Shown here piece after piece: positions 1,067 through 6,741 of a DNA stretch of 8,597 bases. Numbering within the stretch: the stretch's first letter is position 1; every line of letters starts with the position of its first letter. The notes beneath the pieces were generated by a model. The model was not told the DNA's origin and ran no database searches. It saw only the letters and a list, made by a program, of their open reading frames with translations. The DNA is from Alistipes sp. (GTDB lineage: Bacteria; Bacteroidota; Bacteroidia; Bacteroidales; Rikenellaceae), in the NCBI GenBank assembly GCA_017934845.1, contig JAGBIR010000141.1, forward strand, positions 1 to 8,597, read 5' to 3'. Position numbers and translations under genes: made by a program.

Positions 1067-1097
1067 TTTGCAAATTCGTTTTTAATTACTACTTTTG
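1067..1097 (+). promoter_or_regulatory. Bacteroides-type promoter of the B12 uptake operon
   Basis: TTTG at 1067-1070 matches the -33 element and TACTTTTG at 1090-1097 matches the -7 consensus TAnnTTTG exactly. The 19-nt spacer is the spacing expected for the primary sigma factor of Bacteroidetes. Initiation about 5 nt downstream would fall near 1102, where the first strand of the riboswitch P1 stem begins (1102-1107). That agreement supports the assignment. It divides the intergenic region between this plus-strand promoter and the prfA promoter. Confidence 0.7.
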
Positions 1098-1295
1098 CCA
1101 TTGCAAATGGTTCCCCGTAGGCCACGCGGCCCTCGGGGTGAAAAGGAAATCCGGTGTAAATCCGGAACAATACCTGTTGCTGTAAGTCCCATTTCCGAAA
1201 GGGAATTTTATTCTGTTGCACTCTTTGCCACTGGGTTCAGACCTGGGAAGGCGCACAGATAGGGATAAGTCAGAAGACCTGCCTTTGCATTTTGG
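1098..1295 (+). promoter_or_regulatory. Cobalamin (adenosylcobalamin-type) riboswitch aptamer
   Basis: The leader RNA would bind cobalamin and lower expression of the downstream B12 uptake operon. The B12 box at 1268-1283, AGTCAGAAGACCTGCC, fits the family consensus AGYCMGgAgaCCkGCC. Other matching parts are the AAATCCGGTGTAAATCCGGA segment, whose TCCGG (1150-1154) pairs with CCGGA (1162-1166); the TTGCTGTAAG stretch at 1177-1186; and GCCACTGGG at 1227-1235 followed by GGGAAGGC. P1 can form between TGCAAA (1102-1107) and TTTGCA (1284-1289). A further stem pairs CCCCG (1113-1117) with CGGGG (1134-1138), and a stem capped by GAAA (1191-1206) forms a peripheral arm. Placement upstream of btuG and btuB agrees with known control of such loci. 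The exact outer ends are approximate. Confidence 0.93.
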
Positions 1296-1311
1296 ATTTT
1301 TGGCCTGCAGG

Positions 1312-1369
1312 ACTACGGGACGAATCAAAACTAATTTTTAGCAGTAAATTTTAAGTTTTGCCCCGTAGT
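1312..1369 (+). promoter_or_regulatory. Two-part hairpin in the riboswitch expression platform
   Basis: ACTACGGG (1312-1319) is perfectly complementary to CCCGTAGT (1362-1369). Directly inside, CAAAACT (1326-1332) is perfectly complementary to AGTTTTG (1354-1360). The two helices are separated by 6 unpaired bases on the left and 1 on the right, with a loop at 1333-1353. No U-tract follows, so this is not a classical terminator. Its role in B12 control is inferred from position only. Confidence 0.6.
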
Positions 1370-1397
1370 GGTGGTGAAGCGCGATTTTAGGAGTTGT

Positions 1398-1415
1398 TGT
1401 GGCTCATGTGGCTCA
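1398..1415 (+). repeat. 9-bp perfect tandem duplication in the leader
   Basis: TGTGGCTCA occurs twice back to back (1398-1406 and 1407-1415). It lies in the untranslated leader about 100 nt before the first gene of the operon. It may be a protein or RNA contact site or simply a slippage duplication; nothing in the sequence decides between these. Confidence 0.5.
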
Positions 1416-1515
1416 TTCCGAAGAGTCGATTTTTGACGGCAAAAATGTTTTGAGTTAATTTTCAGTTCTGCTTTAATGGCGCAACTTTTTTATTAACTTA
1501 AAATATTTATGCGTT

Positions 1516-2625
1516 ATGAAGCGATTTTTCTTTTTTGCAGCACTTTGCGTAAGTGCTTTTTCGCTCGCCTCTTGCGAGTACGATGACACCGATTTGTGGC
1601 AGAAGGTTGACAACCTGCAACAGCAAGTCGATGCCAACACAGCCGAGATTGAGACACTCTCGACACTATTGGATGCATTGAGTAGTGGCAAAGTCATCAC
1701 CTCTGTCGAGCAGACCGAAGATGGCTATCGACTATCATTTAACGATGGAAGCAGCGTTGAGCTTACCAACGGACAGGATGGTCAGGATGGCGATTCGCTC
1801 TTTGCAAGTATTGAACAAGTCGATGGTATGTTAATCATTACCTTGACCGATGGTCGAGTAATCAAACTCCCCGTAATCAATTATGATTTGCGCGTGCTGA
1901 CCTTTGAGGATGGCGATTACCGTGGCTCGGCGGCCAACGCTGCAACCTATTGGAGCGACTTTATTCCCGCCGACACACAGTATGGTAACGGTCACGGAAA
2001 ATATTCTTGGTATGACGAGGGTAATACCGAATTGGCCTTTACACCCTCTACCACAGCACTCTTCCCCGGATATGGTGGCCACGCTCTGTCGAACTACGTT
2101 GGCAGCGACCTTTCGCTGGGCAATTATATGTATGATTTGCAGGCATATAACGTCGCAGGAGGAGCAAACGGATCGAAGAATTTCTGCGTGCATTTCGGCT
2201 ACCTCGATGATTCAGGTCTCGGCATGATGAACGAGCTGGTTTATTTCCATTTCGAGGATGGCGTGGCTCGCGTAATCGACCACATGTATGTTACCAACAT
2301 CACCTATGTTTATAACGTTTTGACCAACGGCGATGGCTGGATGGTACAGAAGGGTGGTGTTCGCGAGGATACTTGGTTTAAAATCGTTGCCTACGGATAC
2401 GACCAGAACGACAATCTAACAGGCACTTCGGAGTTCTTTCTTTGGGAAAAGGGCCGCAAGGGCGTAAAGGATTGGACTCGTTGGAATCTCTCATCGCTGG
2501 GCAAGGTTTGCCGCGTGGAGTTCAACCTCATAGGTAGTGACGAGCTTTACGAGAGTGGCTATGGACTCGGCGCTCCGGGCTATTTCGCCTATGATGATGT
2601 TGCAGTAAGATTCGACAAAGAATAA
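1516..2625 (+). CDS. Surface lipoprotein with DUF4988-like N-terminus and DUF4465-like domain (B12 operon)
   Basis: First gene of the B12-riboswitch operon, 369 aa. Residues 1-20 are a lipoprotein signal peptide ending in LASC, with lipidated Cys20. The following EYDDTD resembles the acidic surface-export signal of Bacteroidetes lipoproteins, so the protein is probably displayed outside the cell. Residues about 23-60 have a heptad pattern (LWQKVDNLQQQVDANTAEI) suggesting a coiled coil. A short beta-rich stretch with DGQDGQDGD around 90-98 resembles DUF4988 domains. From about residue 125 the sequence fits DUF4465: VLTFEDGDY, YVTNITYVYN near 258, WFKIVAYGY near 287, WNLSSLGKV near 323, and the closing YFAYDDVAVRF. 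The family recognition is from memory, not a search. The operon context suggests a B12- or corrinoid-binding accessory; it could be equivalent to the reported BtuH lipoproteins, which I cannot confirm. It ends 12 nt before the next gene. Confidence 0.85.
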   Translation: MKRFFFFAALCVSAFSLASCEYDDTDLWQKVDNLQQQVDANTAEIETLSTLLDALSSGKVITSVEQTEDGYRLSFNDGSSVELTNGQDGQDGDSLFASIEQVDGMLIITLTDGRVIKLPVINYDLRVLTFEDGDYRGSAANAATYWSDFIPADTQYGNGHGKYSWYDEGNTELAFTPSTTALFPGYGGHALSNYVGSDLSLGNYMYDLQAYNVAGGANGSKNFCVHFGYLDDSGLGMMNELVYFHFEDGVARVIDHMYVTNITYVYNVLTNGDGWMVQKGGVREDTWFKIVAYGYDQNDNLTGTSEFFLWEKGRKGVKDWTRWNLSSLGKVCRVEFNLIGSDELYESGYGLGAPGYFAYDDVAVRFDKE

Positions 2626-2637
2626 GTCTTGTAAAGA

Positions 2638-3579
2638 ATGAGATTTTTTAGATTTTTGTGTATGTTGTTGATCGTGATCACATCGTCTTGTAACAAAGAC
2701 GATGTGATTACAATCACCTTTGATAAAGGTTTTTACCGCCCTGCAACCGAGCAATCGTCTGCAGCATGGAACAAGGTCTTTGAATATACACCCGCACCGG
2801 GGCAATTTATAGGAGATACCAAGACGGGAGGTTTTTCGGGTGAGGAGCAGAGTGCAGCGGATGCCGCAGCCTATGCCGAAAGGCGACTCTCGGAGGGAAA
2901 ATTTGTATCGTTAGGAGGTTTTGGAGGTTACATTATCGTTGGCTTCGACCATAGTATCGACAACAGCGTAGGCTACGATTTGGCTATTGGCGGCAACGCT
3001 TTCGATGGCTCTTCCGAGCCGGGTGTTGTATGGGTGATGCAGGATGAGAATGGCGATGGCGAGCCAAACGACAGGTGGTATGAGTTGCGGGGCAGTGAAA
3101 GTGGCTCGGCAACGACACTGCAAAACTATTCGGTAACCTACTACCGCCCCACGCAACCACAGCAAGCAATAAAGTGGCGCGACAGCGAGGGCGCAGAGGG
3201 TGAGATTGACTACTTGAGCAGTTACCACACGCAAGATTCCTACTATCCACAATGGATTACGGCCGACAGCTACACCCTTTCGGGTACTCGCCTCGAAGCA
3301 CGTAACTACGATAAATCGGGTAACGGAACAATGTGGATTCAACCCGCTTACGATTGGGGCTACGCCGATAATTTCAGTTCGGCAGATCACACATCGGATG
3401 GTGGAAATATGAACTTGATTGATATTGCCAACGCCATAACAAGCACAGGCGAAGAGACAGAACTGGAGTATATAGATTTTGTAAAGATACAGACTGCCGT
3501 AAACACTAAAAGTGGCTGGTTAGGCGAAAATTCGACCGAAGTTACAGGCATTTACGACTACAGATTAATGAGAAGATAA
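2638..3579 (+). CDS. Putative surface lipoprotein of unknown function in B12 uptake operon
   Basis: A 313-aa protein with a short lipoprotein signal peptide (MRFFRFLCMLLIVITSSC, lipidated Cys18) followed by NKDD, which fits a surface-export signal. I do not recognise a characterised family, but the sequence resembles uncharacterised 'cell surface proteins' found beside B12 transporters in Bacteroidetes. It is rich in Gly, Ser, Tyr and Trp and has no further membrane segment, which suggests a beta-rich extracellular fold. GGFGGYIIVGFDHSIDN near residue 94 is followed by an EF-hand-like acidic loop, D136-E-N-G-D-G-E-P-N-D145, that could bind calcium. The C-terminal part has YIDFVKIQTAVN. Its stop codon overlaps the btuG start by one base (TAATG), so translation is probably coupled to btuG. 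A role in B12 capture or in stabilising the BtuBG complex is inferred from position only. A 13-bp inverted repeat covers its lipobox codons. Confidence 0.85.
   Translation: MRFFRFLCMLLIVITSSCNKDDVITITFDKGFYRPATEQSSAAWNKVFEYTPAPGQFIGDTKTGGFSGEEQSAADAAAYAERRLSEGKFVSLGGFGGYIIVGFDHSIDNSVGYDLAIGGNAFDGSSEPGVVWVMQDENGDGEPNDRWYELRGSESGSATTLQNYSVTYYRPTQPQQAIKWRDSEGAEGEIDYLSSYHTQDSYYPQWITADSYTLSGTRLEARNYDKSGNGTMWIQPAYDWGYADNFSSADHTSDGGNMNLIDIANAITSTGEETELEYIDFVKIQTAVNTKSGWLGENSTEVTGIYDYRLMRR
2676..2709 (+). repeat. Strong inverted repeat inside the 5' end of the second lipoprotein gene
   Basis: ATCACATCGTCTT (2677-2689) is the exact reverse complement of AAGACGATGTGAT (2696-2708), with a 6-nt loop GTAACA. 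A G-U pair (2676 with 2709) could extend the RNA stem to 14 pairs. It starts about 40 nt after the start codon and covers codons 14-24, including the lipidated Cys18 codon. No U-tract follows, so it is not a standard terminator. It might affect mRNA stability, processing or early translation, or be an operator; the function is unknown. Confidence 0.9.
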
Positions 3580-4649
3580 TGGTAAGATTTTCGACATATT
3601 TTCAACTTCTGATGCTGACCGCAATGTTAGCATTTGCAGGCTGTATGAAGTGGGAGTATGGATTGGAGGAGGATTTCTCGGCCGAGGGCAAAGGATTGTT
3701 CGTCATCAACGAGGGAAATTTCAACTACGGCAACGCCACACTCTCGTACTACAACCCCACGACGAAGAGTGTCGAAAACGAGATATTCTATCGTGCCAAC
3801 GCAATGAAATTGGGCGACGTGGCACAGTCGATGACCATCCACGACGGCAAGGGCTGGGTTGTGGTTAATAATTCCCACGTCGTATTCGCCATCGACCTTA
3901 CAACATTCCGCGAGGTGGGCCGCATCATGAATCTCACTTCGCCACGTTACATCCATTTCGTATCGGACGATAAGGCCTACGTTACACAGCTTTGGGATAA
4001 TCGCATCTTTATTATTAACCCAAAGAATTACAGCGTTATAGGCCATATCGAGTGTCCCAATATGACTATGGAGACTGGCTCGACCGAGCAGATGGTACAA
4101 TATGGCGACTACCTTTTTGTTAACTGCTGGTCATACCAAAACCGTATTCTGAAAATCGACACCCGCACGGATAAAATTGTTGCCGAATTGGAACTCGGTA
4201 TCCAGCCCACATCGCTTGCGCTGGACAAAAACGGCAAATTATGGAGCGTTACAGACGGAGGTTTTGAGGGTAGCCCCTACGGTTATGAAGCACCCTCGCT
4301 TTATCGTATCGATGCCGAGAGCTTTACCATCGAAAAGGAGTTTCGTTTCAGCCGAGGTGATGCTCCTTCCGAGGTGCAGCTAAACGGCACGCGCGACCGT
4401 CTTTACTGGATAAACGACGACGTTTGGGAGATGTCGGTTGATGCCGACCGCCTGCCCGTACGGCCATTTCTGCCTTATGCCGAAACCATATATTACGGCC
4501 TTACCATCTGCCCCTCGACGGGTGATGTTTACGTGGCCGACGCCATTGATTATCAGCAACCCGGCAAGATTTATCGTTACACGGCACAAGGTGAAAAGAT
4601 AGATGAATTTTATGCAGGTGTTATACCTGGTGCTTTTTGTTGGAAATAA
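3579..4649 (+). CDS. btuG: BtuG, surface vitamin B12-capturing beta-propeller lipoprotein
   Basis: BtuG proteins are outer-surface lipoproteins of gut Bacteroidetes that bind B12 very tightly and sit over the BtuB barrel, passing the ligand to it. This 356-aa protein starts with a lipoprotein signal peptide ending AFAGC (lipidated Cys22) followed by MKWEYGLEED. The rest shows about seven propeller-type repeats of roughly 45 residues, each with a hydrophobic strand followed by a ligand-loop pattern: GLFVINEGNFNYGNATLSYY near 38, GWVVVNNSHVVFAIDL near 92, KAYVTQLWDNRIFIINP, YLFVNCWSYQNRILKIDT, KLWSVTDGG, RLYWINDDVWEM, and DVYVADAIDY before the end. This matches the DUF5074/YncE-like architecture of BtuG. 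The length, the lipobox and the position directly before btuB (6-nt gap) all agree. The start overlaps the previous stop (TAATG) and is preceded by GAGAAG. Binding residues cannot be assigned from this sequence alone. Confidence 0.92.
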   Translation: MVRFSTYFQLLMLTAMLAFAGCMKWEYGLEEDFSAEGKGLFVINEGNFNYGNATLSYYNPTTKSVENEIFYRANAMKLGDVAQSMTIHDGKGWVVVNNSHVVFAIDLTTFREVGRIMNLTSPRYIHFVSDDKAYVTQLWDNRIFIINPKNYSVIGHIECPNMTMETGSTEQMVQYGDYLFVNCWSYQNRILKIDTRTDKIVAELELGIQPTSLALDKNGKLWSVTDGGFEGSPYGYEAPSLYRIDAESFTIEKEFRFSRGDAPSEVQLNGTRDRLYWINDDVWEMSVDADRLPVRPFLPYAETIYYGLTICPSTGDVYVADAIDYQQPGKIYRYTAQGEKIDEFYAGVIPGAFCWK

Positions 4650-4655
4650 GAGAGT

Positions 4656-6710
4656 ATGAAACGACTGCTAACCATAGTCTTTGCCATATTGCCGCTAATT
4701 TCAATTCAAGCGCAGGAGGTCGAGAATTGGCTCGACAAGGGACTCTCTATTCCTGAAGTTGCGGTTTTGGGCGAGCGACCTATGAAGCAAATCGGCACGC
4801 AGCAGACCTCATTCAGCGAGTCGGTGCTGAAGGAGAGTATTTCCCTCTCGATGGCCGATGTTCTTACGTTCAACTCCTCGATTTTTGTCAAAAACTATGG
4901 TCGTGCTACTCTTTCAACTGTCTCATTTCGTGGTACATCGCCTTCACACACGCAGGTTACATGGAATGGTATGCGAATGAATAGCCCGATGCTCGGCATG
5001 ACTGATTTTTCGATGATTCCCGCCTACTTTATCGACGAAGCGTCGCTCCTGCACGGCACCTCGTCCATAAACGATACGGGTGGCGGTTTGGGTGGCTCTA
5101 TACGACTTGCAACCAAGCCTCTGCAGAACAAGGGATTCGGCCTGCAATATATTCAGGGCATAGGCTCGTTCCGCACCTTTGATGAGTTTCTGCGCCTGAG
5201 CTACGGCACACGCAAATGGCAATTTTCGACCCGCGCATCATACTCTTCATCGCCCAACGACTTCAAGTATCGCAATCGCGACAAGCGCGAGAATATCTAC
5301 GACGAGCAGATGAACATCATAGGCCAATACTACCCCATCGAGCGCAACCGCAGCGGTGCTTTCAAGGATTTGAACATCCTGCAGGAGATTTCGTTCAACG
5401 CAGGCCGTGGAGACAGGCTCTCACTCAGTGCGTGGTACGTTAATTCCAATCGCGAGCTGGCTATGCTGACAACCGATTATGGCGACGAGGGCGACTTCGA
5501 CAACCGCCAGCGAGAACACACCCTGCGAAGCGTCTTGCAGTGGGATCATCTGCGCAGTAACTGGAAGTTAGCAGCCAAGGCAGGCTACCTACATTCGTGG
5601 ACGGCATACGACTACAAGCGCGATCCGGGCAATGGCACGATGGAGGTTATGACACGCTCACGAAGTCTGACCGACACCTTCTTCGGGCAAGCCGAAGGCG
5701 AGTATTACGTGGGCAACAAATGGCTCTTCACGGCAAATATCGCTGCACACCAGCACTTTGTCGAGAGCCGCGACAAAAACATCATACGCCAAGATGGCAA
5801 CCAAGCCATCGTAGGCTACGACCAGAGTCGCATAGAGTTGTCAGCTGCCATCTCGGCAAAGTGGCGTCCGACAGAGAAAATCGGTCTTTCGGTTGTTCTG
5901 CGCGAGGAGATGTTCGGGCGCGATTTTTCACCCATCATACCTGCATTTTTTGCCGAATATGAGCTTTCGCGCCGCGGCAATATCGTTGCAAAAGGCTCGG
6001 TATCAAGAAATTTCCGATTCCCATCGCTCAACGACCTCTATTTCCTACCGGGCGGCAATCCCGACTTAAGAAAGGAGAGCGGCTGGACCTACGATGCGGG
6101 CGTATCGTTTGCCATAGGTAAGACAAAGCGATATTCGCTCTCAGGCTCGGCAACGTGGTTTGACTCCTATGTTAAAGATTGGATTTTGTGGCTCACCACA
6201 CCAAAAGGATTCCTCTCGCCACGCAACATAAAGGATGTACACTCCTATGGTATCGAACTCAAGGCCAATACATCCATCGCCCTCGCGCGCCATTGGATGA
6301 TAGAGGGCTCGGCCACATTCTCGTGGACGCCATCAATCAACGAGGGCGAGCCGCTCACGCCAGCCGATAAATCGGTGGGCAAGCAGTTGCCATACATCCC
6401 CGAATATACCGCTACGGCTACCGGCACCCTGAAGTGGCGACGCTGGGCATTGCTCTACAAGTGGTGTTATTACAGCGAACGATACACAATGTCGAGCAGC
6501 GACATTACACTCACCGGCCGCCTGCCAAAGTATTATATGAGTAACCTCTCGCTGGAGAAGAGCATCGCACTACGCTGGGCCGACCTCTCATTAAAAGGCA
6601 CCGTTAACAACCTCTTCGACGAAGAGTATGTCTCAGTCCTCTCGCGCCCAATGCCCGGCATCAACTTCGAGATTTTCATCGGCATAACACCCAAGTGGGG
6701 AAAGCGATAA
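4656..6710 (+). CDS. btuB: BtuB, TonB-dependent outer-membrane vitamin B12 transporter
   Basis: A 22-strand outer-membrane barrel with a plug, powered by TonB-ExbBD, that moves cobalamin into the periplasm. The 684-aa precursor has a Sec signal peptide (about 1-19, cleavage likely IQA|QEV). It lacks the N-terminal carboxypeptidase-like domain of SusC-type receptors. IPEVAVLGER at 32-41 is the likely TonB-box region. The plug spans about 45-155, with SFRGTSPSHTQVTWNG and the family motif GGGLGGSI at 142-149. The barrel follows, with FRFPSLNDLYFLPGGNPDL, a hallmark of TonB-dependent receptors, near 450-470, and VNNLFDEEYVSVL near the end. The final strand NFEIFIGITPKWGKR ends in a basic residue rather than the usual aromatic one. 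Substrate is inferred from the riboswitch and btuG. It is the last gene of the operon; no BtuFCD genes follow. Confidence 0.92.
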   Translation: MKRLLTIVFAILPLISIQAQEVENWLDKGLSIPEVAVLGERPMKQIGTQQTSFSESVLKESISLSMADVLTFNSSIFVKNYGRATLSTVSFRGTSPSHTQVTWNGMRMNSPMLGMTDFSMIPAYFIDEASLLHGTSSINDTGGGLGGSIRLATKPLQNKGFGLQYIQGIGSFRTFDEFLRLSYGTRKWQFSTRASYSSSPNDFKYRNRDKRENIYDEQMNIIGQYYPIERNRSGAFKDLNILQEISFNAGRGDRLSLSAWYVNSNRELAMLTTDYGDEGDFDNRQREHTLRSVLQWDHLRSNWKLAAKAGYLHSWTAYDYKRDPGNGTMEVMTRSRSLTDTFFGQAEGEYYVGNKWLFTANIAAHQHFVESRDKNIIRQDGNQAIVGYDQSRIELSAAISAKWRPTEKIGLSVVLREEMFGRDFSPIIPAFFAEYELSRRGNIVAKGSVSRNFRFPSLNDLYFLPGGNPDLRKESGWTYDAGVSFAIGKTKRYSLSGSATWFDSYVKDWILWLTTPKGFLSPRNIKDVHSYGIELKANTSIALARHWMIEGSATFSWTPSINEGEPLTPADKSVGKQLPYIPEYTATATGTLKWRRWALLYKWCYYSERYTMSSSDITLTGRLPKYYMSNLSLEKSIALRWADLSLKGTVNNLFDEEYVSVLSRPMPGINFEIFIGITPKWGKR

Positions 6711-6713
6711 TAC

Positions 6714-6741
6714 AAAAAAATGCCCGCCAAAAGCGGGCATT
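6714..6741 (-). terminator. Intrinsic terminator between convergent genes
   Basis: AATGCCCGC (6719-6727) pairs with GCGGGCATT (6733-6741) in a 9-bp stem with a 5-nt loop. On the minus strand the stem is followed by a U-run from the A-tract at 6714-6720, so it is a good terminator for the beta-galactosidase gene that ends at 6771. In the plus direction the stem is followed by GCACTTATATC with no U-run, so it would stop btuB transcription less efficiently but may still contribute. Confidence 0.85.

Follow-up and report, generated by a model that had tools for sequence, protein, structure and literature searches.

The surface cobamide-uptake loci of Bacteroides thetaiotaomicron are the closest described relatives of the system considered here. 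Locus 2 of this species is arranged as btuJ2-btuH2-btuL-btuG2-btuB2 together with further genes (PMC12751083), BtuJ1 and BtuJ2 belong to the DUF4465 protein family (PMC12751083, PMC13398666), and BtuG forms a lid on the transporter BtuB (PMC10404256). We analyzed an 8,597-nucleotide (nt) stretch of DNA from Alistipes sp. (contig JAGBIR010000141.1, hereafter called the window) that carries a cobalamin riboswitch followed by four closely packed genes. It is quite probable that this operon encodes homologs of BtuJ, BtuH, BtuG, and BtuB that likely act in cobamide capture at the cell surface and in delivery to the BtuBG transporter, and in which a trimeric stalk, part coiled coil and part collagen-like, is predicted to support the head of BtuJ. 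The basic uptake system is already known, because the gene order of locus 2, minus btuL, is the rule among the relatives examined. What is new is the mount of BtuJ, which consists of a DUF4988 coil and a Gly-X-X run.

The window shares with locus 2 the btuJ, btuH, btuG, btuB order, homologous proteins, and a cobalamin riboswitch, but its operon lacks btuL and btuFCD, its BtuH is devoid of PKD domains, and its BtuJ carries a DUF4988/Gly-X-X stalk. By contrast, profile alignments reveal no coiled coil or stalk before the heads of BtuJ1 and BtuJ2. The four open reading frames (ORFs) located 3′ of the riboswitch are intact (Table 1) and are separated by 12, −1, and 6 bases, wherein the btuH stop and the btuG start overlap by one base (TAATG). 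The first three proteins have N-terminal hydrophobic signals, and acidic residues come after the Cys in each (CEYDD, CNKDD, and CMKWE). These features agree with the original prediction, made from the DNA letters, of a riboswitch, four packed genes, and acidic post-Cys motifs, and they support its view of an operon for cobamide capture at the surface, linked to a riboswitch, in which two binder-type lipoproteins precede btuG-btuB. As described below, homology settles the identity of these two leading lipoproteins.

The first lipoprotein had been called DUF4465-like, which Pfam confirms (residues 186–362, 115.8 bits with a cut-off of 25), and had been proposed to be a BtuH-type binder, which is ruled out because the structure matches are to BtuJ proteins (PMC12751083, PMC13398666). 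A profile built from 40 sequences (set A1, comprising the window BtuJ and 39 of 120 listed homologs from 2262 found) matches the solved structures of BtuJ2 (9i2l, E 1.5e-19) and BtuJ1 (9fct, E 1.7e-12). Likewise, when an AlphaFold2 model of the protein with a predicted local distance difference test (pLDDT) score of 84.2 was compared with the Protein Data Bank by using Foldseek, the best match was again BtuJ2 (9i2l, E 2.1e-17, template modeling score TMt 0.69), and 9fct was matched with an E value of 2e-12. The predicted head therefore has the augmented jelly-roll fold of BtuJ1 and BtuJ2, in common with the BtuJ/DUF4465 family (IPR027828; 9fct, 9i2l, 9hmu), and it retains two key tyrosines of this family. 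These corrin-contacting residues are Tyr264 in the DE loop (= Tyr146) and Tyr356 in the HI loop (= Tyr245), whereas the third conserved tyrosine (Tyr97, AB loop) lies outside the alignment.

One feature of the head weighs against a straightforward assignment of cobalamin binding. The HI loop reads GAPGY instead of the NTPSY or NTPAY found in BtuJ1 and BtuJ2, such that Gly352 and Ala353 replace BtuJ1 Asn241 and Thr242, two of the four cobalamin hydrogen-bonding side chains common to BtuJ1 and BtuJ2. This Asn and Thr are not defining for the DUF4465 family as a whole, because the HI-loop residues have a reported frequency of >70% compared with 97% for the tyrosine alone (PMC13398666). The 40 A1 sequences include the variants LGAPGY, LGVAGY, LAVPGY, LNAPGY, and LNCPAY. 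Moreover, the main chain makes many of the BtuJ contacts (PMC12751083), and therefore cobalamin binding by the window BtuJ is judged from its sequence to be likely, although not assured. The exchange of Asn/Thr for Gly/Ala and the varied loops across A1 could also reflect a change in specificity, such that the window BtuJ would accept a subset of cobamides or a different corrinoid. We view this possibility as distinctly unlikely, since the riboswitch, BtuG, and BtuB are of the cobamide type and since eight distant DUF4465 members, including one from a Rikenellaceae bacterium, are reported to bind B12 (PMC13398666).

The region preceding the head includes a DUF4988 domain (residues 27–90, Pfam 51.3 bits with a cut-off of 30) that the original prediction did not mention. 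Among 80 BtuJ ORFs taken from BtuH loci (set A2), this domain is recognized in 50 by Pfam and in 45 by BLAST to the window stalk, and it is present in 32 of the 40 A1 sequences. We aligned 26 stalks (set A3, the window's and 25 of 32 extracted, overlapping with A2) and found that seven of the nine a/d positions of the heptad core are hydrophobic in every one, as is residue 38 in 24 of them. An Asn occupies a d position (window residue 41) in all 26 stalks and is preceded by Ile or Val at position a in 24. The window segment VDANTAEI fits this [I/V]xxN pattern with Asn at d, and the Asn is present in 81 of the 83 coils that could be anchored among the 120 homologs. The sequence [I/V]xxNxxx with Asn at d, together with a central chloride, recurs among trimeric coiled coils (PMC12933892).

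Between two conserved β-hairpins, the stalk carries its Gly-X-X run. This run is unbroken and has a length that is a multiple of three in 76 of 76 anchored cases among the 120 homologs, although this count is weakened as evidence for the pattern by anchors whose construction already sets the first and last Gly. The run extends from 3 to 45 residues before a final GDS-type triplet, and the same whole-triplet pattern is seen in 26 of 26 A3 stalks and in all 26 of the 80 A2 ORFs that could be anchored. Across the 26 aligned stalks, the longest run varies from 2 to 20 triplets, compared with a mean of 2.0 and a maximum of 6 when the stalks are shuffled. The Pfam Collagen model is matched (1e-3) by 17 of the 80 A2 ORFs and by four of the 40 A1 sequences. 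The Asn-at-d coil and the whole-triplet variation of the Gly-X-X run are signs, read from sequence, of a homotrimer.

Several observations speak against a trimeric stalk. The Asn is off its expected spacing in 14 of 39 anchored A2 coils, two DUF4988-bearing proteins (P0006 and P0017) have no Gly-X-X run, and Pfam Collagen does not match the window BtuJ. Because the 3-triplet run of the window falls within the range of the shuffled stalks, the argument for a trimer rests on the family. No solved relative of the stalk was significant in a sequence search (best E 0.081) and Foldseek returned no stalk match at E ≤ 0.001, while the structure predictions of the stalk are monomer models. In addition, the DUF4465 protein D5EK51 runs as a monomer (PMC13398666). 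The A1 profile also hit 1coi, a trimeric coil, as well as GCN4 fusions, but these matches were not significant (E 1.2 to 3.3) and were not used.

The short run of the window, the lack of a trimeric match in both searches, and an AlphaFold2 model of the stalk segment alone that contains a helix and hairpins at moderate confidence (pLDDT 71.9) would all suit an ordinary BtuJ-BtuH-BtuG-BtuB operon in which DUF4988 only raises BtuJ above the membrane as a monomeric spacer, with nothing multivalent. We nevertheless consider such a spacer unlikely. Seven hydrophobic a/d positions of nine plus an Asn at another d position, maintained in 26 of 26 stalks, make little sense for a lone helix, and it is difficult to see why, without a triple helix, the runs should vary by whole triplets and reach as many as 20. 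We lean, by a modest degree, toward BtuJ of Alistipes-type bacteria being a three-headed, lipid-anchored B12 antenna carried on an Asn-at-d trimeric coil and a tunable collagen-like rod. In this reading, the stalk is interchangeable and also serves leucine-rich-repeat proteins of this genome, so that micronutrient capture would be joined to a general bacterial display platform. No stalked or trimeric BtuJ is described in the titles, abstract openings, and passages searched, a body of literature outside of which lie most subscription journals and all preprints. In the searched text of the relevant BtuJ and DUF4465 papers, the terms coiled, collagen, trimer, and oligomer are never mentioned.

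The second lipoprotein, a protein of 313 amino acids (aa), has no Pfam or NCBIfam match at E ≤ 0.1, which is why it was earlier labeled as unrecognized and without a nameable role. This label proved wrong, as the protein corresponds to the BtuH domain (PMC8941943). A phmmer search against solved structures matched its residues 38 to 308 to 7biz (E 1.7e-94), which is BtuH2 with B12, and also matched BtuB1G1 (8blw, E 1.8e-62), where the matching part is a BtuH domain fused to BtuG1 (PMC10404256). The match to 7biz, with 159 identities in 270 aligned residues, spans the globular B12 domain, and the remainder of the window BtuH consists of its signal and ~20 residues. Thus, the whole domain seen at the C terminus of BtuH2 and as the H-domain of BtuG1/BtuGH is present here as a free-standing lipoprotein. 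The N-terminal PKD/Ig domains of BtuH2 were not found in it by Pfam, and a BtuH type that lacks extra domains has been described (PMC8941943). Of the eight residues reported to contact B12 in BtuH2 (PMC8941943), seven are identical (Gln333, Asn399, Phe401, His476, Trp511, Trp577, and Leu578). Counting against binding, Tyr510 is replaced by Met232. However, this tyrosine appears dispensable, because the BtuG1 H-domain (8blw) has Thr at the same position and yet binds cobalamin by itself (PMC12751083).

Matches to solved structures (Table 1) make the identities of BtuG and BtuB certain from sequence, in agreement with the names originally given to the third and fourth genes. BtuB comprises a barrel and plug homologous to those of solved Bacteroides BtuB proteins, and it scores 45.2 bits, far below the cut-off of 599.7, with the NCBIfam TonB-B12 equivalog, a model that covers another BtuB branch. 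It had also been suggested that the encoded proteins form a multi-protein corrinoid-capture system. A stable complex is not indicated by immunoprecipitation in B. thetaiotaomicron, wherein BtuH2 was not linked with BtuB2 or BtuG2 (PMC8941943).

We examined gene order in the 80 top-ranked among 252 confirmed BtuH loci, a sample biased toward close BtuH relatives. A DUF4465 gene is present in 79 of these loci and all four btu genes in 73, of which 68 have the order btuJ-btuH-btuG-btuB, one has this order with two btuJ copies, three have H-G-B-J, and one has B-G-J-H. The other seven loci are J-H-G (three), J-H (three), or H-G-B (one), and five of these seven are cut by contig ends. A riboswitch accompanies 75 of the 80 loci, 50 by a B12-box pattern and 25 by cmscan of the 30 pattern-negative loci (10 of 13, 11 of 13, and 4 of 4 positive in separate runs); eight pattern-positive loci were run through cmscan and all were confirmed, whereas 42 rest on the pattern. 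One of these eight confirmations (L096) is a partial match just above threshold. In the five loci without a riboswitch (L037, L042, L056, L061, and L079), the first gene sits at the contig start or no more than ~400 bases from it. Homologs of the window proteins hence do not lie mostly outside B12 riboswitch loci, and btuJ-btuH-btuG-btuB travels with the riboswitch as a block in most of the 80 loci of Rikenellaceae and other Bacteroidales. BtuH is short (frame <400 aa) in 26 loci and longer in 54, and both long examples scanned carry PKD domains.

Two other arrangements were observed. L084 and L086 are two-gene btuJ-btuH units that have a B12-box pattern upstream and no btuG or btuB within the following 6 kb; they are possible binder-only satellites. 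One locus carries a tandem pair of stalked BtuJ genes (L025:3681-5984). A genus-wide BtuJ count (98 of 101 genomes matching) was not used, because many of the matches span only the stalk, which is common to other surface proteins.

In published structures, the lower ligand faces outward when bound by BtuJ or BtuG but inward when bound by BtuH, and on this basis a relay that runs from BtuJ through BtuH to BtuBG has been proposed (PMC12751083). In the model we favor, the BtuJ stalk would be a lipid-anchored trimer, and gain or loss of Gly-X-X triplets would alter its reach. BtuJ would extend three heads outward and BtuH would hold a single short domain closer to the membrane; the two would grip opposite sides of the cobamide and hand it on, after which the BtuG lid would load BtuB, and BtuB would import the ligand with TonB energy. 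The roles of BtuG and BtuB are published for the B. thetaiotaomicron proteins and are presumed to extend to those of the window. A different assignment would make BtuJ mainly a scavenger on released vesicles rather than a cell-bound antenna, as for BtuJ1 and BtuJ2 of B. thetaiotaomicron: single-gene vesicles proved an effective cobalamin source in tests only if they carried BtuJ1 or BtuJ2 (PMC12751083). This role seems rather unlikely for the window BtuJ, given that btuL, which is linked to vesicle release in B. thetaiotaomicron (PMC12751083), would sit between btuH and btuG, where the window has no gene; no search for BtuL was made in the rest of the genome.

The riboswitch aptamer matches the full RF00174 model (1–189, E 1.6e-21) and is the sole Rfam RNA in the window; no second match was found in the 70.31%-complete genome. 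As expected for this riboswitch family, it would leave the operon on when cobamide is scarce. Bacteroides-type promoters have the consensus TTTG/N19-21/TAnnTTTG, and a putative element of this kind lies ahead of the aptamer. An Escherichia coli-type promoter scan is uninformative for this phylum. The leader between the aptamer and btuJ folds better than expected (z −4.28, with 1 of 200 shuffles equally good). Its hairpins resemble those of relatives (seven leaders), although the covariation term is unfavorable (+1.74) and both-side changes occur in 4 of 33 pairs. The second hairpin may be an expression platform, which we offer as a guess.

Table 1. Features of the window, with coordinates counted from its first nucleotide.
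Feature	Coordinates	Strand	Details
Promoter-like TTTG-19-TACTTTTG ahead of aptamer	1067..1097	+	putative; sequence reading
Cobalamin riboswitch aptamer, RF00174	1090..1300	+	89 bits, gathering threshold 31.5
Leader, ~215 nt, two predicted hairpins, the second pairing the btuJ start region	1301..1515	+	minimum free energy −75.1 kcal/mol
btuJ, lipoprotein with DUF4988 stalk and DUF4465 (BtuJ-type) head	1516..2625	+	369 aa
Mature N terminus, coiled coil (Asn41 at core d), and first β-hairpin	1573..1770	+	residues 20–85
Gly-X-X run GQDGQDGDS	1771..1797	+	3 triplets
Second stalk β-hairpin	1798..1884	+	residues 95–123; strands 96–102, 105–110, 115–120 (AlphaFold2 model)
DUF4465 head, BtuJ type	1885..2616	+	about residues 124–367; Tyr264, Tyr356 kept; Gly352, Ala353 in HI loop
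btuH, lipoprotein, BtuH B12-binding domain alone	2638..3579	+	313 aa
btuG, β-propeller surface lipoprotein	3579..4649	+	356 aa; E 1.4e-185 to 8p97_B
btuB, TonB-dependent cobamide transporter	4656..6710	+	684 aa; E 0 to 8bmx_C
10-pair hairpin between convergent btuB and lacZ-like gene	6719..6741	.	T-run on − strand

The operon is flanked upstream, on the opposite strand, by a gene for a peptide chain release factor with PCRF and RF-1 domains and downstream by a lacZ-like gene that is convergent with btuB. The source assembly spans 1.65 Mb in 242 contigs. The seven closest btuH relatives reside in assemblies of Alistipes sp. or Rikenellaceae bacterium, several of which derive from cattle, sheep, and deer guts. 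Elsewhere in the genome, one FecCD permease exceeds its cut-off (L104, C44) and is paired with a binding protein, without a cobalamin riboswitch. The best NCBIfam model for the permease is BtuC, although far under the cut-off (191 bits with a cut-off of 334); the pair is a candidate BtuFCD.

Seven further DUF4988 frames above the cut-off are present in the genome (two on contig C24 and one each on C80, C171, C192, C83, and C207), one of which has an internal stop. Our first Asn-at-d pattern was too strict and matched none of these seven, but when read by eye all seven have M/LNTN at the matching place of the coil, with Gly-X-X triplets after it. Three of the seven were scanned and carry BspA-type leucine-rich repeats. 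Similarly, the NCBIfam model for the BT3328 lyase matches the first 94 residues of the window BtuJ (E 1.8e-7), at 29.8 of 1100 bits and thus far under the full-length cut-off. These DUF4988 surface proteins have a similar N-terminal stalk, Asn, and Gly-X-X triplets, but carry leucine-rich repeats or an enzyme in place of a B12 binder. The DUF4988 literature found comprises a table row, and the searched text of the BT3328 paper never mentions trimer, coiled, or oligomer.

Other mounts for the head were also noted. In P0033, a DUF4465 head is fused to a fimbrillin-like N terminus (Mfa_like_1, E 5e-7), and many BtuJ ORFs of 550–620 aa share a GNLGNDGDFGYA stretch (e.g., L028:4339-5994). The long BtuJ ORFs of L028 and L035 have no significant Pfam match before the head. 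Given the DUF4988 stalk and the Mfa_like_1 fusion, the B12-type head is therefore found on several display scaffolds, and the DUF4988 stalk would itself be a general display module. If the BtuJ stalk is trimeric, then B12 capture would gain multivalency and an adjustable reach, and DUF4988, with its eight frames above the cut-off in this genome, would gain a function in trimeric display.

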